Assembly: GCF_001429605.1 (NCBI RefSeq)
Contig: NZ_LMSS01000006.1
Span: forward strand, 455,256 to 519,255
Source of the DNA: Phycicoccus sp. Soil802
GTDB taxonomy: Bacteria > Actinomycetota > Actinomycetes > Actinomycetales > Dermatophilaceae
Length of the DNA stretch: 64,000 nt
Direction of reading: 5' to 3'
In this document: in pieces, positions 58,774 to 63,439 of the stretch
How the letters are laid out: each line of letters opens with the position of its first letter
Position numbering within the stretch: the first letter of the stretch is position 1
Program-made: the position numbers and the translations under genes
The notes under the pieces: generated by a model
What the model saw: only the letters and a program-made list of their open reading frames with translations
Database searches by the model: none
Told to the model about the DNA's origin: nothing

Positions 58774-58863
58774 CCGCGATTCGGTGCGTCGAAGCGCCCC
58801 GACCCACGGCTCCGGGGCCTTACACTCATGCGGCCACACGACATCTCTTGGGGGGATCCAACC

Positions 58864-61146
58864 GTGAGCTTTCTGCCGACCTGGCGCCATGTCCTGAGTG
58901 GAGCCACCGCGTTCGCCGTGCTCGTGGGCGCCCTCGCGGTCTCTGCGCCGGCCGCTCAGGCCGCCGACACCGAGGCCCCGATGCTGGCCTCCTTCTCGGT
59001 CTCGCCCCGGGCCGTCGGGCCCGGCCAGGACGTCACGGTGACCTACGCAGCGACCGAGGCGGCCGGGACCCTCTCGTCGGTCGAGTTCCAGTTCCAACGC
59101 GGCACAGTCGCCTACACGGCCCACGCGACTGGTGCCGTGCCGACCTCGGGCACCGTCCACGTCAGCCTGCCGGACGGCTCCGCGAACGGGACCTACTCCC
59201 TCAGCCTGGTGCGGCTCAAGGACCCAGCCGGCAACACCTCTACCGCCTTCCGCGGCGGCTCGGTCAGCTACTCCTCGGGCGCCACCGGCCCGGCGACCCA
59301 TCCGTTGGTCCTGGCCGACGGTGACCTCACCCTGACCGGCTCCGTCGCCGACTGGACGTCACCTGTGTTGACCTCCGCCTCCATCAGCGACTCGACGCTC
59401 ACCGTGGGCGACTCGCTGGCCGTCAACTACGCCATGGATGAGCAGCACCTCTTGCGCGCCGTGACCGTGTACTACCAGAACAAGACCGCCGACTTCTCGC
59501 CCTACGTCCGGGCTGCCAAGCTGGTCGACGCCGACCTGCCGACCTCCGGCACGGCGACCACCACGGTCCCGGACACCTGGGCCAACGGCACGTACGCCGT
59601 GACCTCGGTCGCCGTGGTAGACCAGTTCGGGAACAGCTCGAGCTTCTACTCCGACGGTACAGCGATCCGCGATGGGTTCTGGGGCACCCACGACGTCGAC
59701 CTCAAGTCCCTGTCCTTCACCGTCTCAGGCTCCCCGGCCGACTTCGAACCCCCCGTCCTGACCAGCCTGGGTCTCCCGACGCCGCTGGCCACCTTCGGGG
59801 GCACGGTGTCCCTGCCGTACACCACGACCGACGCGAGCGGCCACCTCGGCAGCATCACGGCGACCTTCACCTCGTCATCTGGCGACTCCTTCACCCTGAC
59901 CAACACCGGCGCGCCCTTGTCGGGGACCCTCACCGGCCCAGCCAACCCGACTCCGATGAAGAGCATCGCGGACTACGAGCTCGCCTCCCTCCGCGTCACG
60001 GACGCGAAGGGGCGCTCGGCGACGTACCACCGGGGCGGCCTCCTCGACCTCCCCGGCGGTTCGACCACCCACAGCTTCGACTTCTCGATCCGCGAGGTCC
60101 GTCTCGCGAAGGTTCCGACCGCCCCGACGTGGGCCGCTGTCACCCCCGGCCCGGCCTCGGCCAAGGTCCAGTGGGACAGCGCCGGCGACAACGGCGCCCC
60201 GATCACCGGCTGGACCATCACCGTCAGTCCTGGTGGGAAGGTCGTCACCACGAGCGGGTCGGCCCGGTCGGCGTCCATCACCCGACTGACCAACAAGACC
60301 CGCTACACCTTCACGGTCCGCGCCAAGAACGCGGTCGGTACCGGTGCCGGAAGGTCGGTCTCCGGCACCCCGCGCGCCTTCGGGCTGCGCATCCTGTCGC
60401 CGGGAGACTTCGGCGACGACGGGAAGACCGACATCCTGGCCGTCAACCACGACGGCAAGCTGCTCTACTACCGCGGCAACGGGCGCGGGGGTTTCGCGTC
60501 CACCGGCAAGGTCATCGGAGCCGGTTGGCAGGTGAACCGACTGGTCCTCCCCCGGGTGGGTCCTCGGGAGGGTGGCCTGCTGCCCGACGCGTGGGCGGTC
60601 ACCTACGACGGCGCCCTCCGACGCTACGACGCGACACGCCAAGGAACGTTCTCATCCTGGGCACCGGTGGGCTCCGGCTGGGACAAGTTCGACAAGGTGT
60701 TCACGTCCGGCGACTTCGGCACCGACGGCTACCCCGACGTCATGGGCATCACCGACGGCGGCGATCTCTACTACTACCCCTACCGGTCGCAGACGGCCGG
60801 CCTCTACCCGGGCGTCCGGATCGGCGGCGGCTGGAACGTGTTCACCCAGGTGTTCGGCGCGGGCGACCAGACCGGCGACGGACGCAACGACCTGATGGCG
60901 ATCAAGTCCGACGGCACGCTCTGGCTGTACGCCGGCAACGGCAAGGGCGGGTTCGCCGCCGCCGGCAAGCGGATCGGCAGCGGCTGGGGCTCGGTGCGGG
61001 CGGCGTTCGTCACCGACTTCGACGGTGGCGGCCCCGACCTGCTCACGGTCGACGCCAAGGGAGACCTGCGGCTCTACCACGGCAACAACCGGGCGGGTTT
61101 CAGCTACCGCGGCGTCATCGGCAAGGGCTGGAACATCTTCCTCTGA
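58864..61146 (+). CDS. Secreted protein with FN3 and FG-GAP/VCBS repeats
   Basis: 760 residues from GTG 58864, preceded by GGGGGGAT. Signal peptide ends in APAAQAAD (about residue 35). Residues ~38-410 are three Ig-like repeats of about 125 residues each (vSPRAVGPGQDVTVTYAATE; SISDSTLTVGDSLAVNYAMDE; LGLPTPLATFGGTVSLPYTTTD). One fibronectin III domain follows (about 415-510, PTAPTWAAVTPGPASAKVQW). The C-terminal third is FG-GAP-like beta-propeller repeats (GDFGDDGKTDILAVN; GDFGTDGYPDVMGI; GDQTGDGRNDLMAI). Surface adhesion or binding role inferred; no anchor is seen. Confidence 0.85.
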   Translation: MSFLPTWRHVLSGATAFAVLVGALAVSAPAAQAADTEAPMLASFSVSPRAVGPGQDVTVTYAATEAAGTLSSVEFQFQRGTVAYTAHATGAVPTSGTVHVSLPDGSANGTYSLSLVRLKDPAGNTSTAFRGGSVSYSSGATGPATHPLVLADGDLTLTGSVADWTSPVLTSASISDSTLTVGDSLAVNYAMDEQHLLRAVTVYYQNKTADFSPYVRAAKLVDADLPTSGTATTTVPDTWANGTYAVTSVAVVDQFGNSSSFYSDGTAIRDGFWGTHDVDLKSLSFTVSGSPADFEPPVLTSLGLPTPLATFGGTVSLPYTTTDASGHLGSITATFTSSSGDSFTLTNTGAPLSGTLTGPANPTPMKSIADYELASLRVTDAKGRSATYHRGGLLDLPGGSTTHSFDFSIREVRLAKVPTAPTWAAVTPGPASAKVQWDSAGDNGAPITGWTITVSPGGKVVTTSGSARSASITRLTNKTRYTFTVRAKNAVGTGAGRSVSGTPRAFGLRILSPGDFGDDGKTDILAVNHDGKLLYYRGNGRGGFASTGKVIGAGWQVNRLVLPRVGPREGGLLPDAWAVTYDGALRRYDATRQGTFSSWAPVGSGWDKFDKVFTSGDFGTDGYPDVMGITDGGDLYYYPYRSQTAGLYPGVRIGGGWNVFTQVFGAGDQTGDGRNDLMAIKSDGTLWLYAGNGKGGFAAAGKRIGSGWGSVRAAFVTDFDGGGPDLLTVDAKGDLRLYHGNNRAGFSYRGVIGKGWNIFL

Positions 61147-61252: not shown

Positions 61253-61930
61253 ATGACCGTGTCGCCATCGGAAGCACCCCCGCCGCAGGGCGTCCCCGAC
61301 GGGGTCCGCGCGCAGATCCTCGCCACCGAGCACTGGAGCCTGCTGGCCACGCGCAGCATGACCTGGTCCGAGGTGATGAGCCGGATCACCATCCACCTCA
61401 CCGTGTCGTCGGCCTCCCTCGTGGTGCTCGCGCTCTTCGCCCAGGCGTCCGGGTTCGACACCGCCTTCCGGGTGATGGCGATCGGGCTCGCGGCGGCCGT
61501 GCTCGTCATGGGCACCCTGACCCAGATCCGGGTGGTCAACGCCAGCATCGACGACGCCTCGACCGTCCTCGGCATGAACCGGCTCCGCGCGGCCTACCTC
61601 GACCTCGACCCGGGCATCGCGCCATACCTCATCACCTCGGCCCACGACGACCAGAAAGGCCTGATGTTGACCTACCTGATGGGCTGGCCGCGCTCGACGC
61701 TGAGCCACGTCGCGGGGAGCACGAGCATCTTCCTGACCGTCGTCAACGCGATCGTCGCCGGGACGCTCGGTGCCCTGGTGGCCGATGCGGCCGGCGCCGC
61801 GTCACCGGCCGTGGCGATCATCGGCGTCGGGTGCGGCCTCGGCTACGTGGCCGGCCAGCTGGTGATCGGGCAGCGGACCTTCGCCTCGCCCCGGCAGGAG
61901 TCGCGCTTCCCCACGCCGGACGTCGACTGA
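61253..61930 (+). CDS. Membrane protein of unknown function
   Basis: 225 residues, four predicted helices in two pairs (about 48-66, 72-92, 150-172 and 178-200) separated by a soluble loop with AAYLDLDPGIAPYLITSAHDD. AGGAGG ribosome site seven bases before the ATG. I recall related actinobacterial proteins but no function. Confidence 0.7.
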   Translation: MTVSPSEAPPPQGVPDGVRAQILATEHWSLLATRSMTWSEVMSRITIHLTVSSASLVVLALFAQASGFDTAFRVMAIGLAAAVLVMGTLTQIRVVNASIDDASTVLGMNRLRAAYLDLDPGIAPYLITSAHDDQKGLMLTYLMGWPRSTLSHVAGSTSIFLTVVNAIVAGTLGALVADAAGAASPAVAIIGVGCGLGYVAGQLVIGQRTFASPRQESRFPTPDVD

Positions 61931-62018
61931 TCCCCCGTTCGTCCGCGTTTCGTCCGGTCTGCGAGACGGCTGGACGACTCCGTGGACGAGTCCCGCCCCG
62001 TCGTGCTCCACTGATGGC

Positions 62019-62099
62019 ATGTCTTCGACCACCGCGGTGACCGCCACGCACATGGCTTCCATGTGCTGCGGCGTCATGCGGTGTTGCTGCTGCGCCTGA
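62019..62099 (+). CDS. Cys-rich leader peptide 1
   Basis: 26 codons, MSSTTAVTATHMASM then CCGVMRCCCCA and stop: six Cys in the last eleven residues. Clusters of Cys at the end of a tiny ORF upstream of sulfur-metabolism genes are the known design of cysteine-responsive attenuation in actinobacteria, where shortage of Cys-tRNA stalls the ribosome. A hairpin follows 21 bases after the stop. Similar to the Cys-rich leader peptides named for Mycobacterium smegmatis loci. Confidence 0.75.
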   Translation: MSSTTAVTATHMASMCCGVMRCCCCA

Positions 62100-62120
62100 G
62101 TCCCAGCCCCGCACCAGCCC

Positions 62121-62143
62121 GGCGCTCCATCTGAGTGAGCGCC
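62121..62143 (+). promoter_or_regulatory. Attenuator-type hairpin after leader peptide 1
   Basis: Perfect 7-bp stem GGCGCTC / GAGCGCC, 9-base loop. GCGCC just inside the end of the leader ORF could pair with GGCGC of the stem's left arm, offering an alternative structure whose choice would depend on ribosome position. There is no U run, so it may work through Rho or translation initiation. Confidence 0.5.
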
Positions 62144-62165
62144 CCACCGCACCGGAGACGAACCC

Positions 62166-62357
62166 ATGAGCACCACTCTTGCCAGCCACGCGGCATACCA
62201 CCGCATCCACCTCGACCTGCACCTGACCCAGGGCTCTGTGTGTCCGCGAATGTGTTGCCACGCCGCACATTCCGACACCCAGTCCACTGAACAGGAGCAG
62301 TTCCATGACCGCCATCACCACCGCCGGCACTCCCGGCGTCAACCGGTTCACCCGTAG
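62166..62357 (+). CDS. Cys/His-containing leader ORF 2 overlapping cysteine dioxygenase
   Basis: 63 codons with GGAG upstream. Residues ~12-31 contain HRIHLDLHL...SVCPRMCC, which resembles the R-x-H-x-DL-x(n)-C consensus of putative actinobacterial leader peptides linked to sulfur genes. Its frame runs 53 bases past the cysteine dioxygenase ATG, so a ribosome reading to the end passes over that gene's ribosome site. Likely regulatory; the His-rich tail (DRHHHRRH) may have no function of its own. Confidence 0.6.
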   Translation: MSTTLASHAAYHRIHLDLHLTQGSVCPRMCCHAAHSDTQSTEQEQFHDRHHHRRHSRRQPVHP

Positions 62358-62790
62358 CCAGCTGCTGCGCACCGCGCGGCTCTTCGCCACCGACCCCGAC
62401 CTCGACCGCCTGGTCGACCCCGAGGCCACCGAGCGCAGCTGGCAGCGCCTCGACGCGACCGACCACCTCGAGATCTGGCTGATCAGCTGGCCCGTCGGCG
62501 CCAGCACCGGGTGGCACGACCACCTCCAGTCGGAGGGCGCCTTCCTCACCGTCAGGGGCGAGCTCGCCGAGCAGTCCTGGTCGGGGAACACCGCCCACGA
62601 CCGCTACCTCTGGGAGGGCGAGGGCCGGACGTTCGGTCCGCACCACATCCACAACGTCGCCAACCTCGGCGACCGGCCGGCCCTGTCCGTGCACGTCTAC
62701 TCCCCCTCGCTGCGCGGGATGACCCGCTACGCACTGCTCGACGGACGCCTGAAGCAGACCGGGATCGAGCGGGCGGGAGAGCAGTGGTGA
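62305..62790 (+). CDS. cdo: Cysteine dioxygenase
   Basis: 161 residues, bacterial CDO size. Cupin motif 1 GASTGWHDHLQSEGAF supplies two of the three Fe-binding His, and motif 2 GPHHIHNVANLG supplies the third. Oxidises L-cysteine to cysteine sulfinate with O2. AGGAG ribosome site lies inside leader ORF 2. The rhodanese gene overlaps its end (GTGA). Confidence 0.92.
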   Translation: MTAITTAGTPGVNRFTRSQLLRTARLFATDPDLDRLVDPEATERSWQRLDATDHLEIWLISWPVGASTGWHDHLQSEGAFLTVRGELAEQSWSGNTAHDRYLWEGEGRTFGPHHIHNVANLGDRPALSVHVYSPSLRGMTRYALLDGRLKQTGIERAGEQW

Positions 62791-63293
62791 CCGCCGTCGC
62801 GCCCAGCACCACGGCGGCACCCTCCGTCCACTGGGAGACCCGGCTGTTCAGCGACCCGACCGCGACCAGTGCGCCGCCGGCCGGGCGCGGCTGGGACGCG
62901 CCGACCTACGCCGGCATCGACGACCAGCTGGGTGACGCCCGCAGCCGTCTGGACCGGGTGAGCGTGCGCGCCGCCTACCAGGAGGTGCTCTACGGGCGGG
63001 CCATCCTGGTCGACATCCGACCTGCGGCCCAGCGCCTCGTCGAGGGCGAGGTGGCGCCCCACCTCGGTGTCCTCGTCGTCGAGCGCAACGTGCTCGAGTG
63101 GCGGTTCGACCCCCGGCACGACGCGCGCCTCGAGGTCGCGTCGTTCGACGCCCGCATCCTCGTCCTGTGCCAGGAAGGCTTCACCTCGTCGCTGGCCGCG
63201 GATGCCTTGCTGCGCCTGGGGATCCACCGCAGCACGGATGTCGTGGGCGGGTTCCGCGCGTGGCGCGAGGCCGGGCTGCCGGTCGCCGCCTGA
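62787..63293 (+). CDS. Rhodanese-like sulfurtransferase
   Basis: 168 residues. Rhodanese domain from about residue 60: GRAILVDIRPAAQRLVEGEV, ILVLCQEGFTSSLAADAL (active-site loop CQEGFTS with the catalytic Cys) and VVGGFRAWREAGLPV. A ~55-residue N-terminal extension is Ala/Thr/Pro-rich. GTG start overlaps the cdo stop. Pairing with CDO suggests a joint role in cysteine sulfur disposal. Confidence 0.9.
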   Translation: MTAVAPSTTAAPSVHWETRLFSDPTATSAPPAGRGWDAPTYAGIDDQLGDARSRLDRVSVRAAYQEVLYGRAILVDIRPAAQRLVEGEVAPHLGVLVVERNVLEWRFDPRHDARLEVASFDARILVLCQEGFTSSLAADALLRLGIHRSTDVVGGFRAWREAGLPVAA

Positions 63294-63362: not shown

Positions 63363-63439
63363 GCTGGAACCGGCCAATTGGCCGACTTCTCAGCCAGGAT
63401 CGCGGGTTGGCGCGCTGGAACCGGGCAATTGGCCGACTT
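63363..63439. repeat. 26-bp direct repeat containing a GGCCAATTGGCC palindrome
   Basis: GCTGGAACCGGCCAATTGGC...CGACTT at 63363-63388 recurs at 63414-63439 with one mismatch (GGGCAATTGGCC in the second copy), 51 bp apart. Located in the 189-bp gap between the rhodanese and DUF3618 genes. Could be a REP-type element or a pair of regulator sites. Confidence 0.65.

Follow-up and report, generated by a model that had tools for sequence, protein, structure and literature searches.

Two short cysteine-containing ORFs and the hairpin between them very probably form a Cys-tRNA sensor of a dioxygenase-rhodanese operon in Phycicoccus sp. Soil802, as judged from comparison with related loci. Both ORFs lie in tandem upstream of the operon in the window, which is the whole stretch of 64,000 nucleotides that was analyzed, and we propose with fair confidence that they are two cysteine-responsive translational attenuators in series, arranged as in the model for ermA and opened by the stalling of ribosomes starved of Cys-tRNA.

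Layout of the leader region and the operon

The features of the leader region and the operon are as follows:

61983-62012, plus strand: candidate promoter, with -35 TGGACG (61983-61988), an 18-nt spacer, and extended -10 TGC-TCCACT (62004-62012)
62019-62099, plus strand: leader 1, 26 aa with six Cys, probably on a leaderless mRNA, reading MSSTTAVTATHMASMCCGVMRCCCCA and stop
62020-62027, plus strand: anti-SD 1, mRNA nt 2-9 (UGUCUUCG), predicted partner of the leader 2 SD
62029-62084, plus strand: inner helix, CCACCGC (62029-62035) with GCGGUGU (62078-62084, containing a Cys codon), from the RNAalifold consensus
62048-62055 and 62059-62066, plus strand: hairpin enclosed by the inner helix, GCACAUGG with CCAUGUGC, from the RNAalifold consensus
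62121-62143, plus strand: inter-leader hairpin, GGCGCTC-CATCTGAGT-GAGCGCC
62153-62159, plus strand: leader 2 SD, CGGAGAC, predicted to be masked by anti-SD 1
62166-62357, plus strand: leader 2, 63 aa with Cys at codons 26, 30, and 31, beginning MSTTLASHAAYHRIHLDLHLTQGSVCPRMCC
62217-62225, plus strand: anti-SD 2, leader 2 codons 18-20 (CUGCACCUG), predicted partner of the dioxygenase SD, located by duplex computation
62248-62272, plus strand: hairpin GAAUGUG / CACAUUC spanning the last leader 2 Cys codons, from RNAalifold of 11 congeneric loci
62292-62300, plus strand: dioxygenase SD region, CAGGAGCAG
62305-62790, plus strand: cupin thiol dioxygenase, 161 aa (PF05995 CDO_I)
62787-63293, plus strand: rhodanese (PF00581), whose GTG start overlaps the dioxygenase stop

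The original prediction had described six Cys among the last eleven residues of leader 1, three Cys in leader 2 together with its 53-base overlap with the dioxygenase start (62305) in another frame, and a 7-bp hairpin between the leaders; all of these were confirmed, and the hairpin proved to be conserved as well.

The extended -10 of the candidate promoter ends 6 nt upstream of the leader 1 ATG. Counting by eye, we found TGCTNCACT 6-7 nt 5′ of the start codon in 13 of the 15 aligned loci and the TGGAC of the candidate -35 in 12 of the 15, and a sigma-70 consensus scan returned no promoters. Leader 1 has no SD and carries this conserved -10-like element 6-7 nt before its start codon (GTG in L008, the sole such genome), and it is probably translated from a leaderless mRNA. 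Intrinsic terminators, sought as a stem followed by a U run, were absent within 61900-62800, so that there is no sign of a transcription attenuator with an intrinsic terminator there, and Rfam covariance models gave no matches up to E 1 within 61900-62900.

Conservation of the leaders and the hairpin

The original prediction had proposed looking for both ORFs upstream of the dioxygenase and for their Cys codons in relatives, and both leaders were present in 11/11 congeneric genomes. The window comes from a genome of the Pedococcus/Phycicoccus group, and two relatives could be named, P. bigeumensis S9.3A and Phycicoccus sp. Root101. Both leaders were also found in four of six loci of three further genera (g44, g43, and g52; L014, L015, L016, and L017), giving 15 double-leader loci, all of them related and hence not independent events. 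The exceptions, which leave two of the six loci without a recognized leader 1, are both from G181 in g52, where L018 has leader 2 only and L033 has neither leader. The Cys codons of leader 1 are likewise conserved, with codons 16 and 24 kept in 14/14 loci, codon 22 in 13/14, codon 25 in 12/14, and codon 23 in 11/14, in a count that leaves out L011 with its one-codon insertion.

The leader 1 consensus among these loci is about MSST...HM.SMC..(V/A)MRCCCCA, and that of leader 2 about H(T/A)AY(R/H)R.H(L/I)DL......C. In 15/15 double-leader loci, leader 2 is preceded by an SD-like site, contains the motif H[IL]DL, and has one or more Cys codons 5′ of the dioxygenase. The frame of leader 2 relative to the dioxygenase is identical in 15/15 as well, and leader 2 overlaps the dioxygenase start in 14/15 with its stop 50-89 bases within the gene, only plus-strand loci having been taken from the first ORF list for the frame and end positions; in L016, leader 2 stops at -34, short of the dioxygenase start.

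At the level of codon change, the two leaders differ. The pN/pS of leader 1 is 0.188/0.189 vs 0.171/0.232 and 0.180/0.211 in its other frames; it has no excess of synonymous change and leans to coding constraint less than its own control frames, so peptide-level selection on leader 1 is unsupported. For the leader 2 core, we obtained 0.174/0.263 vs 0.198/0.234 and 0.223/0.150 in its other frames, and of the two leaders only leader 2 leans towards coding constraint. The value for the dioxygenase (0.390/0.404) was set aside as ungapped and with partly misaligned codons.

At a fixed distance from leader 2, a stem of at least 6 bp is present in 13/15 double-leader loci vs 0.6 expected, a shuffle probability that treats the loci as independent when they are related. 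The hairpin sequences differ between loci while the position holds, and on this comparison the inter-leader hairpin is a real RNA feature. The inner helix of leader 1 is nearly invariant in sequence and therefore displays little covariation.

Relatives of the dioxygenase occur in 79/186 genomes in the family search, and in the phylum sample the enzyme was found in 80/396 genomes. Upstream of the dioxygenase, our Cys-leader detector reached a score of at least 4 in 52/96 loci, compared with 0.25 expected from dinucleotide shuffles and 0/96 on the reverse strand; when the threshold was relaxed to 3, there were 55 loci, with 7.0 expected by shuffling and 6 on the reverse strand. Some of the 44/96 loci below score 4 have weaker leader-like ORFs and some have none, and the locus set comprises the best-scoring f6 enzyme copies and only part of the lower-ranked places from the family search.

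The two leader types also occur separately. In genus g30, the leader 1 type stands alone, directly 5′ of the dioxygenase, in eight loci (e.g., MSSTAAARMFPVMPAAVMCCRCCR), and the corresponding hairpin stands out less from its shuffles (mean MFE z -0.73). The leader 2 type is found without leader 1, as far as listed, in ten loci of the window's own family (L025, L035, L037, L038, L039, L041, L042, L058, L059, and L062). In family f6, a large-genome family that is probably Streptomyces-like, RRVHMDL(V/L)R(Y/F)AGC(V/M)C precedes the gene in 17/17 loci (L081-L097, each the best-scoring enzyme copy per genome), with the first R replaced by H once.

We observed further leader types beside these. A third type begins MSS..., ends WHxC(R/L), has one or two Cys only, and precedes dioxygenases for which no rhodanese was found (L029, L030, L032, L040, L043, L048, L052, and L053); these leaders have the AUGUCUUCG start, and the downstream SD is CGGAGAC in all but L030. 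The f7 loci L099, L100, L102, and L103 have short ORFs ending ECCR.. or CCGA that sit 180-216 bases 5′ of the enzyme match and could be another Cys leader type.

A reading that we find highly improbable is that the leaders are translated while the signal is something other than Cys-tRNA charging, either another stress that slows ribosomes at Cys codons or the nascent leader 2 peptide together with a thiol ligand. It would account for the Cys found 11 residues C-terminal to the His of H(I/L/V/M)DL in the class-B leaders compared by eye, and for the presence of only one or two Cys in the WHxC(R/L) leaders of rhodanese-less loci. It fits poorly with the poly-Cys runs, which are retained with differing codons (TGT/TGC) across the leader 1 types of different genera, and with the mycobacterial cases, which depend on cysteine availability according to the available part of one report (PMC9031893).

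Elsewhere in the genome of the window, rhodanese matches had no Cys leader in the 600 bases upstream, a scan beyond whose reach the window's own leaders stand, at more than 600 bases from the rhodanese domain. The genome's sulfate-reduction genes (L119) had no Cys leader just upstream by a simple detector, unlike the thiol dioxygenase with its two. In a 14-kb region with two PAPS-reductase-type genes, the detector gave three short ORFs, of which one is on the opposite strand, one lies out of frame within a PAPS-reductase gene, and the third, of 10 residues, lies ~90 bases before an ABC-like ORF (named by eye); just upstream of a sulfite-reductase-like ORF in that region (also named by eye), there was no detector ORF.

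Predicted masking of the ribosome sites and the proposed direction of control

In ensemble folds, the leader 2 SD pairs with mRNA nt 1-15 with a probability of at least 0.5 in 11/15 double-leader loci, reaching 0.99 for anti-SD 1 in the window mRNA, and the helix is missing in the other 4/15. The dioxygenase SD pairs in turn with the pre-Cys codons of leader 2 with a probability of at least 0.6 in 14/15 (0.80 in the window), L017 being without this second helix. Taken together, these folds suggest a nested structure in which the leader 1 5′ end would hold the leader 2 SD and the leader 2 pre-Cys codons would hold the dioxygenase SD.

Against controls made of synonymous leaders and shuffled spacers, the accessibility of the leader 2 SD was 0.12 vs 0.26 (under the control mean in 13/15 loci) and that of the dioxygenase SD was 0.13 vs 0.25 (under the control mean in 14/15), with p <=0.05 in single loci for 5/15 and 3/15, respectively. 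In the window, accessibility is 0.00 vs 0.24 for the leader 2 SD (p 0.02) and hardly lower than the control for the dioxygenase SD (0.20 vs 0.23, p 0.15). For the anti-SD 2 duplex, the gain over synonymous controls is only modest, with a mean z of -1.14.

The first helix is further supported by covariation between genera. Leaders starting AUGUCUUCG are mostly followed by CGGAGAC or GGAAGAC as the SD of the next ORF, and the g30 leaders start AUGUCGUCG in 6/8 loci with GACGAC or ACGACA preceding the dioxygenase SD, a pre-SD stretch that is extended to CGACGACAU in L019 and L021. A helix of at least 7 bp between the leader 5′ end and the next SD was found for 25/34 leader-like matches, a set that includes false entries (the second match of L011, L069, L082, and L094), an internal start (L027), and misplaced next starts (L016 and L026), compared with 16% of control pairings; the same 5′ ends gave at least 7 bp with the non-adjacent dioxygenase SD in 2/14.

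Under the serial model, leader 1 would be read through when Cys-tRNA is ample, its 5′ end would base-pair with the leader 2 site, and any ribosome on leader 2 would cross the dioxygenase start and block it, leaving the operon off. When Cys-tRNA is scarce, stalled ribosomes would line up along leader 1 as far as the 5′ end and cover it, freeing the leader 2 site, and ribosomes on leader 2 would halt at its Cys codons, upstream of the dioxygenase site, and break the masking helix, so that the operon would be on only if both leaders stall. The conserved hairpin and the inner helices would organize the first stage, and the frame-shifted run of leader 2 over the dioxygenase start would provide a second, steric route to the off state when Cys-tRNA is plentiful.

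Simulated ribosome placement bears on both stages. In the double-leader loci, covering the mRNA 5′ end lifts the accessibility of the leader 2 SD from 0.12 to 0.36-0.38, but the value is 0.16 when a ribosome occupies only the leader 1 Cys run. With a ribosome halted at the first leader 2 Cys, the mean accessibility of the dioxygenase SD goes from 0.22 to 0.24, rising in L007 and L009-L013 and falling in L001, L004, L006, and L014-L016, with the SD set at a default place in L008, L016, and L017; in the window (L001), it falls from 0.25 to 0.08.

In f6, the predicted partner of the dioxygenase SD is the Cys-codon region of the leader itself, with a partner fraction of at least 0.66 in 15/16 loci (the exception is L088; L095, with no recognized SD, was left out of the folding set). 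Accessibility of the SD is 0.04 vs 0.21 in controls, under the control mean in 14/16, and climbs to 0.28 with a ribosome on the Cys codons in the simulation. The stall simulations thus give a mixed picture, agreeing with opening in f6 and only partly in the double-leader loci. In most f6 loci (L081-L097), the dioxygenase SD has its complement in the leader-end codons UCC UGC, which would make a very compact sensor. Among the ten single class-B leaders of the window's own family, pairing of the SD to pre-Cys codons reaches at least 0.67 in four and 0.44 in L041, and it is 0.03 or less in five.

It is unlikely, in our judgment, that only leader 2 senses cysteine and that leader 1 acts separately, on mRNA stability or in early, possibly Rho-dependent, termination, with no cascade between them. 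Such an arrangement would agree with the many loci where class-B leaders stand alone as far as listed (e.g., L035, L038, L041, and L081-L097) and with the lack of a clean hand-over in the stall simulations, and a similar alternative is given for ermA in the available part of that account (PMC8274638). However, the 5′ end of leader 1 is a specific complement of the SD that follows at the adjacent ORF and covaries with it between genera, and g30 has the leader 1 type by itself directly 5′ of the dioxygenase, both of which speak against this reading.

Sequestration by pre-Cys and Cys-codon sequences means that a ribosome stalled for lack of Cys-tRNA should open the next site, and we infer from the modeled folds, for the sign as for the cascade, that the direction of control is likely the usual one, on at Cys-tRNA shortage. 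The original prediction had suggested that control might be the inverse, with expression when Cys-tRNA is plentiful; under that reading, which would serve to dispose of cysteine, read-through of leader 2 would deliver ribosomes to the dioxygenase start. The enzyme does belong to the cysteine dioxygenase Pfam family, leader 2 does end 53 bases inside the gene, and the window's own leader 2 stall reduces the accessibility of the dioxygenase SD. Nevertheless, in the folds the next site is masked by sequences that precede or overlap the Cys codons in 14/15 double-leader and 15/16 f6 loci, a ribosome placed on the f6 Cys codons opens the SD in the simulation, and the closest solved enzymes act on ergothioneine. 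In addition, the frame of leader 2 is not that of the dioxygenase, and its stop lies 50-89 bases within the gene in 14/15 loci, suggesting occlusion rather than delivery. Inverted control is therefore unsupported and appears improbable to us; of the cysteine sensing first proposed, the tandem leaders and conserved hairpin stand as a very probable Cys-tRNA sensor, and the inverted sign does not stand.

Only tentatively, and as a possibility that we would not yet call probable, do we extend the serial model to a two-stage, AND-like sensor in which the start-codon region of a leaderless ORF is antisense to the next ribosome site, leader 2 controls the operon by helix opening together with its frame-shifted overlap with the operon start, and the operon is a starvation response acting on non-cysteine thiols. 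In such a sensor, initiation at the 5′ end would compete with masking of the downstream site, and ribosome queuing, not one stalled ribosome, would be the signal. If this is true, a serial two-leader design joins the known single Cys-leader attenuators of Actinobacteria, and the use of a leaderless start region as an antisense of the next ribosome site recurs in at least three leader types.

Known leader systems and the downstream enzyme

Leader 1 is a short first ORF with a Cys run near its stop codon, as in mycobacterial-type polycysteine attenuators, on which Canestrari et al. reportedly carried out experimental work in Mycobacterium in 2020. Those leaderless polycysteine ORFs of Mycobacterium are cysteine-responsive attenuators (PMC9031893, PMC9094748, and PMC13236596, in the parts available), and they share with the present locus a short ORF of leaderless type (probable here), a Cys run, a sulfur-metabolism target, and attenuation via ribosome speed at Cys codons (proposed here). 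Sequestration of the next site, as in the mycobacterial type, was computed for leader 1 in 11/15 loci at a pairing of at least 0.5 and was lacking in 4/15. Unlike them, our locus has a second, SD-led leader that overlaps the gene and a thiol dioxygenase-rhodanese target, and the available parts of those three papers mention no leader pair on one operon. Leader 1 had no family match in NCBIfam and resembles the mycobacterial ORFs in layout only.

For leader 2, the nearest described family is NF042934, a cis_reg_atten entry named 'putative leader peptide' with a curated cut-off of 27 bits. The window copy, which ends PRMCC and continues into the gene, did not match it, either full-length or trimmed. 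The leader 2 of L016 scored 28.3 bits, above the cut-off, those of L014 and L015 fell below it (13.4 and 13.0 bits), and those of L007, L012, L013, and L017 as well as the leaders of L018, L025, L035, and L037 gave no match; other leaders reached it in L041 (28.6 bits), L059 (30.2), L039 (32.5), and L085 of f6 (37.1). Weaker matches were to the mycobacterial Cys-rich leader families NF042933 (Ms5788A) and NF042936 (Ms4527A), all of them below the cut-offs. Since the window copy has no match and most scanned orthologs are below the cut-off, we do not file leader 2 under NF042934 and describe it as a divergent, syntenic relative of the family and not a member. Leader 2 as a protein query retrieved no sequence but its own, and a class-B leader searched against a plasmid collection had three matches, all weak (E 6-10).

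Serial pairs of short ORFs upstream of a single gene are also found at ermA and ermB, and in one of two models for ermAL1-ermAL2, a stall on the first leader switches on translation of the second, where a further stall allows ermA to be translated (PMC8274638, in the part available). Stalling there is induced by antibiotics and here would follow from amino acid shortage, and unlike in ermA and ermB, the first leader here looks leaderless and its own 5′ end is the anti-SD. Candidate Cys leaders have been described upstream of Bifidobacterium cbs and of cys operons in Mycobacterium and P. acnes; these, like ours, have Cys codons near the stop and no terminator, but in the available part of the report they are single leaders without conserved hairpins, for which Rho-dependent termination is suggested (PMC1262725). 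Further single Cys attenuator candidates appear in the accessible part of PMC4633059. Among the literature matches listed, which covered titles and abstract openings and few subscription papers, there was neither a tandem Cys leader nor a leader before a thiol dioxygenase. As far as those matches go, what is new is the tandem of leader types, the recurring predicted helix between a leaderless 5′ end and the ribosome site that follows it, and a target operon of thiol dioxygenase and rhodanese. Single Cys switches are known in related bacteria, and no paired one on such an operon is among those matches.

The dioxygenase matches PF05995 CDO_I with E 1.9e-18 (67 bits, cut-off 23), and its AlphaFold model (pLDDT 90.8) has a cupin fold. 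The best PDB matches are seven entries of the ergothioneine dioxygenase of Thermocatellispora tengchongensis (Z 19.8-21.1, 27-29% identity), and cysteine dioxygenases rank lower, with Z 17.2 for that of B. subtilis and about 16 for mammalian ones. The sequence search agrees (E 1e-15 for ergothioneine dioxygenase vs 2e-6 for cysteine dioxygenase). With ergothioneine dioxygenases as the closest solved relatives, the original premise that the downstream genes destroy cysteine is weak, and the operon may release sulfur from other thiols. This genome has no EgtD (PF10017), which 3/11 congeneric genomes have. Self-made ergothioneine was rejected as a general substrate, given that EgtD is missing in 8/11 congeneric genomes, which leaves ergothioneine from outside or another thiol as the substrate. 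The operon product probably frees sulfur from thiols rather than discarding surplus cysteine, and a thiol dioxygenase would be useful to cysteine-starved cells if sulfite is eventually formed from its product. The model also suggests that a widespread 'cysteine dioxygenase' gene belongs to the cysteine-starvation response and calls its assumed substrate into question.

A rhodanese lies near the dioxygenase in 72/96 loci, a number that may be an undercount because flanks are short at some rhodanese-less loci, where the sequence covers a few hundred bases past the dioxygenase match. In the window, the operon is adjoined at 58828-61146 by a gene for a large protein with Ig-like, fibronectin III, and FG-GAP repeats. 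On the 3′ side of the rhodanese, two direct copies of ~26 bp (GCTGGAACCGG(C/G)CAATTGGCCGACTT) lie within 63363-63439, and the first of them holds the inner palindrome GGCCAATTGGCC.
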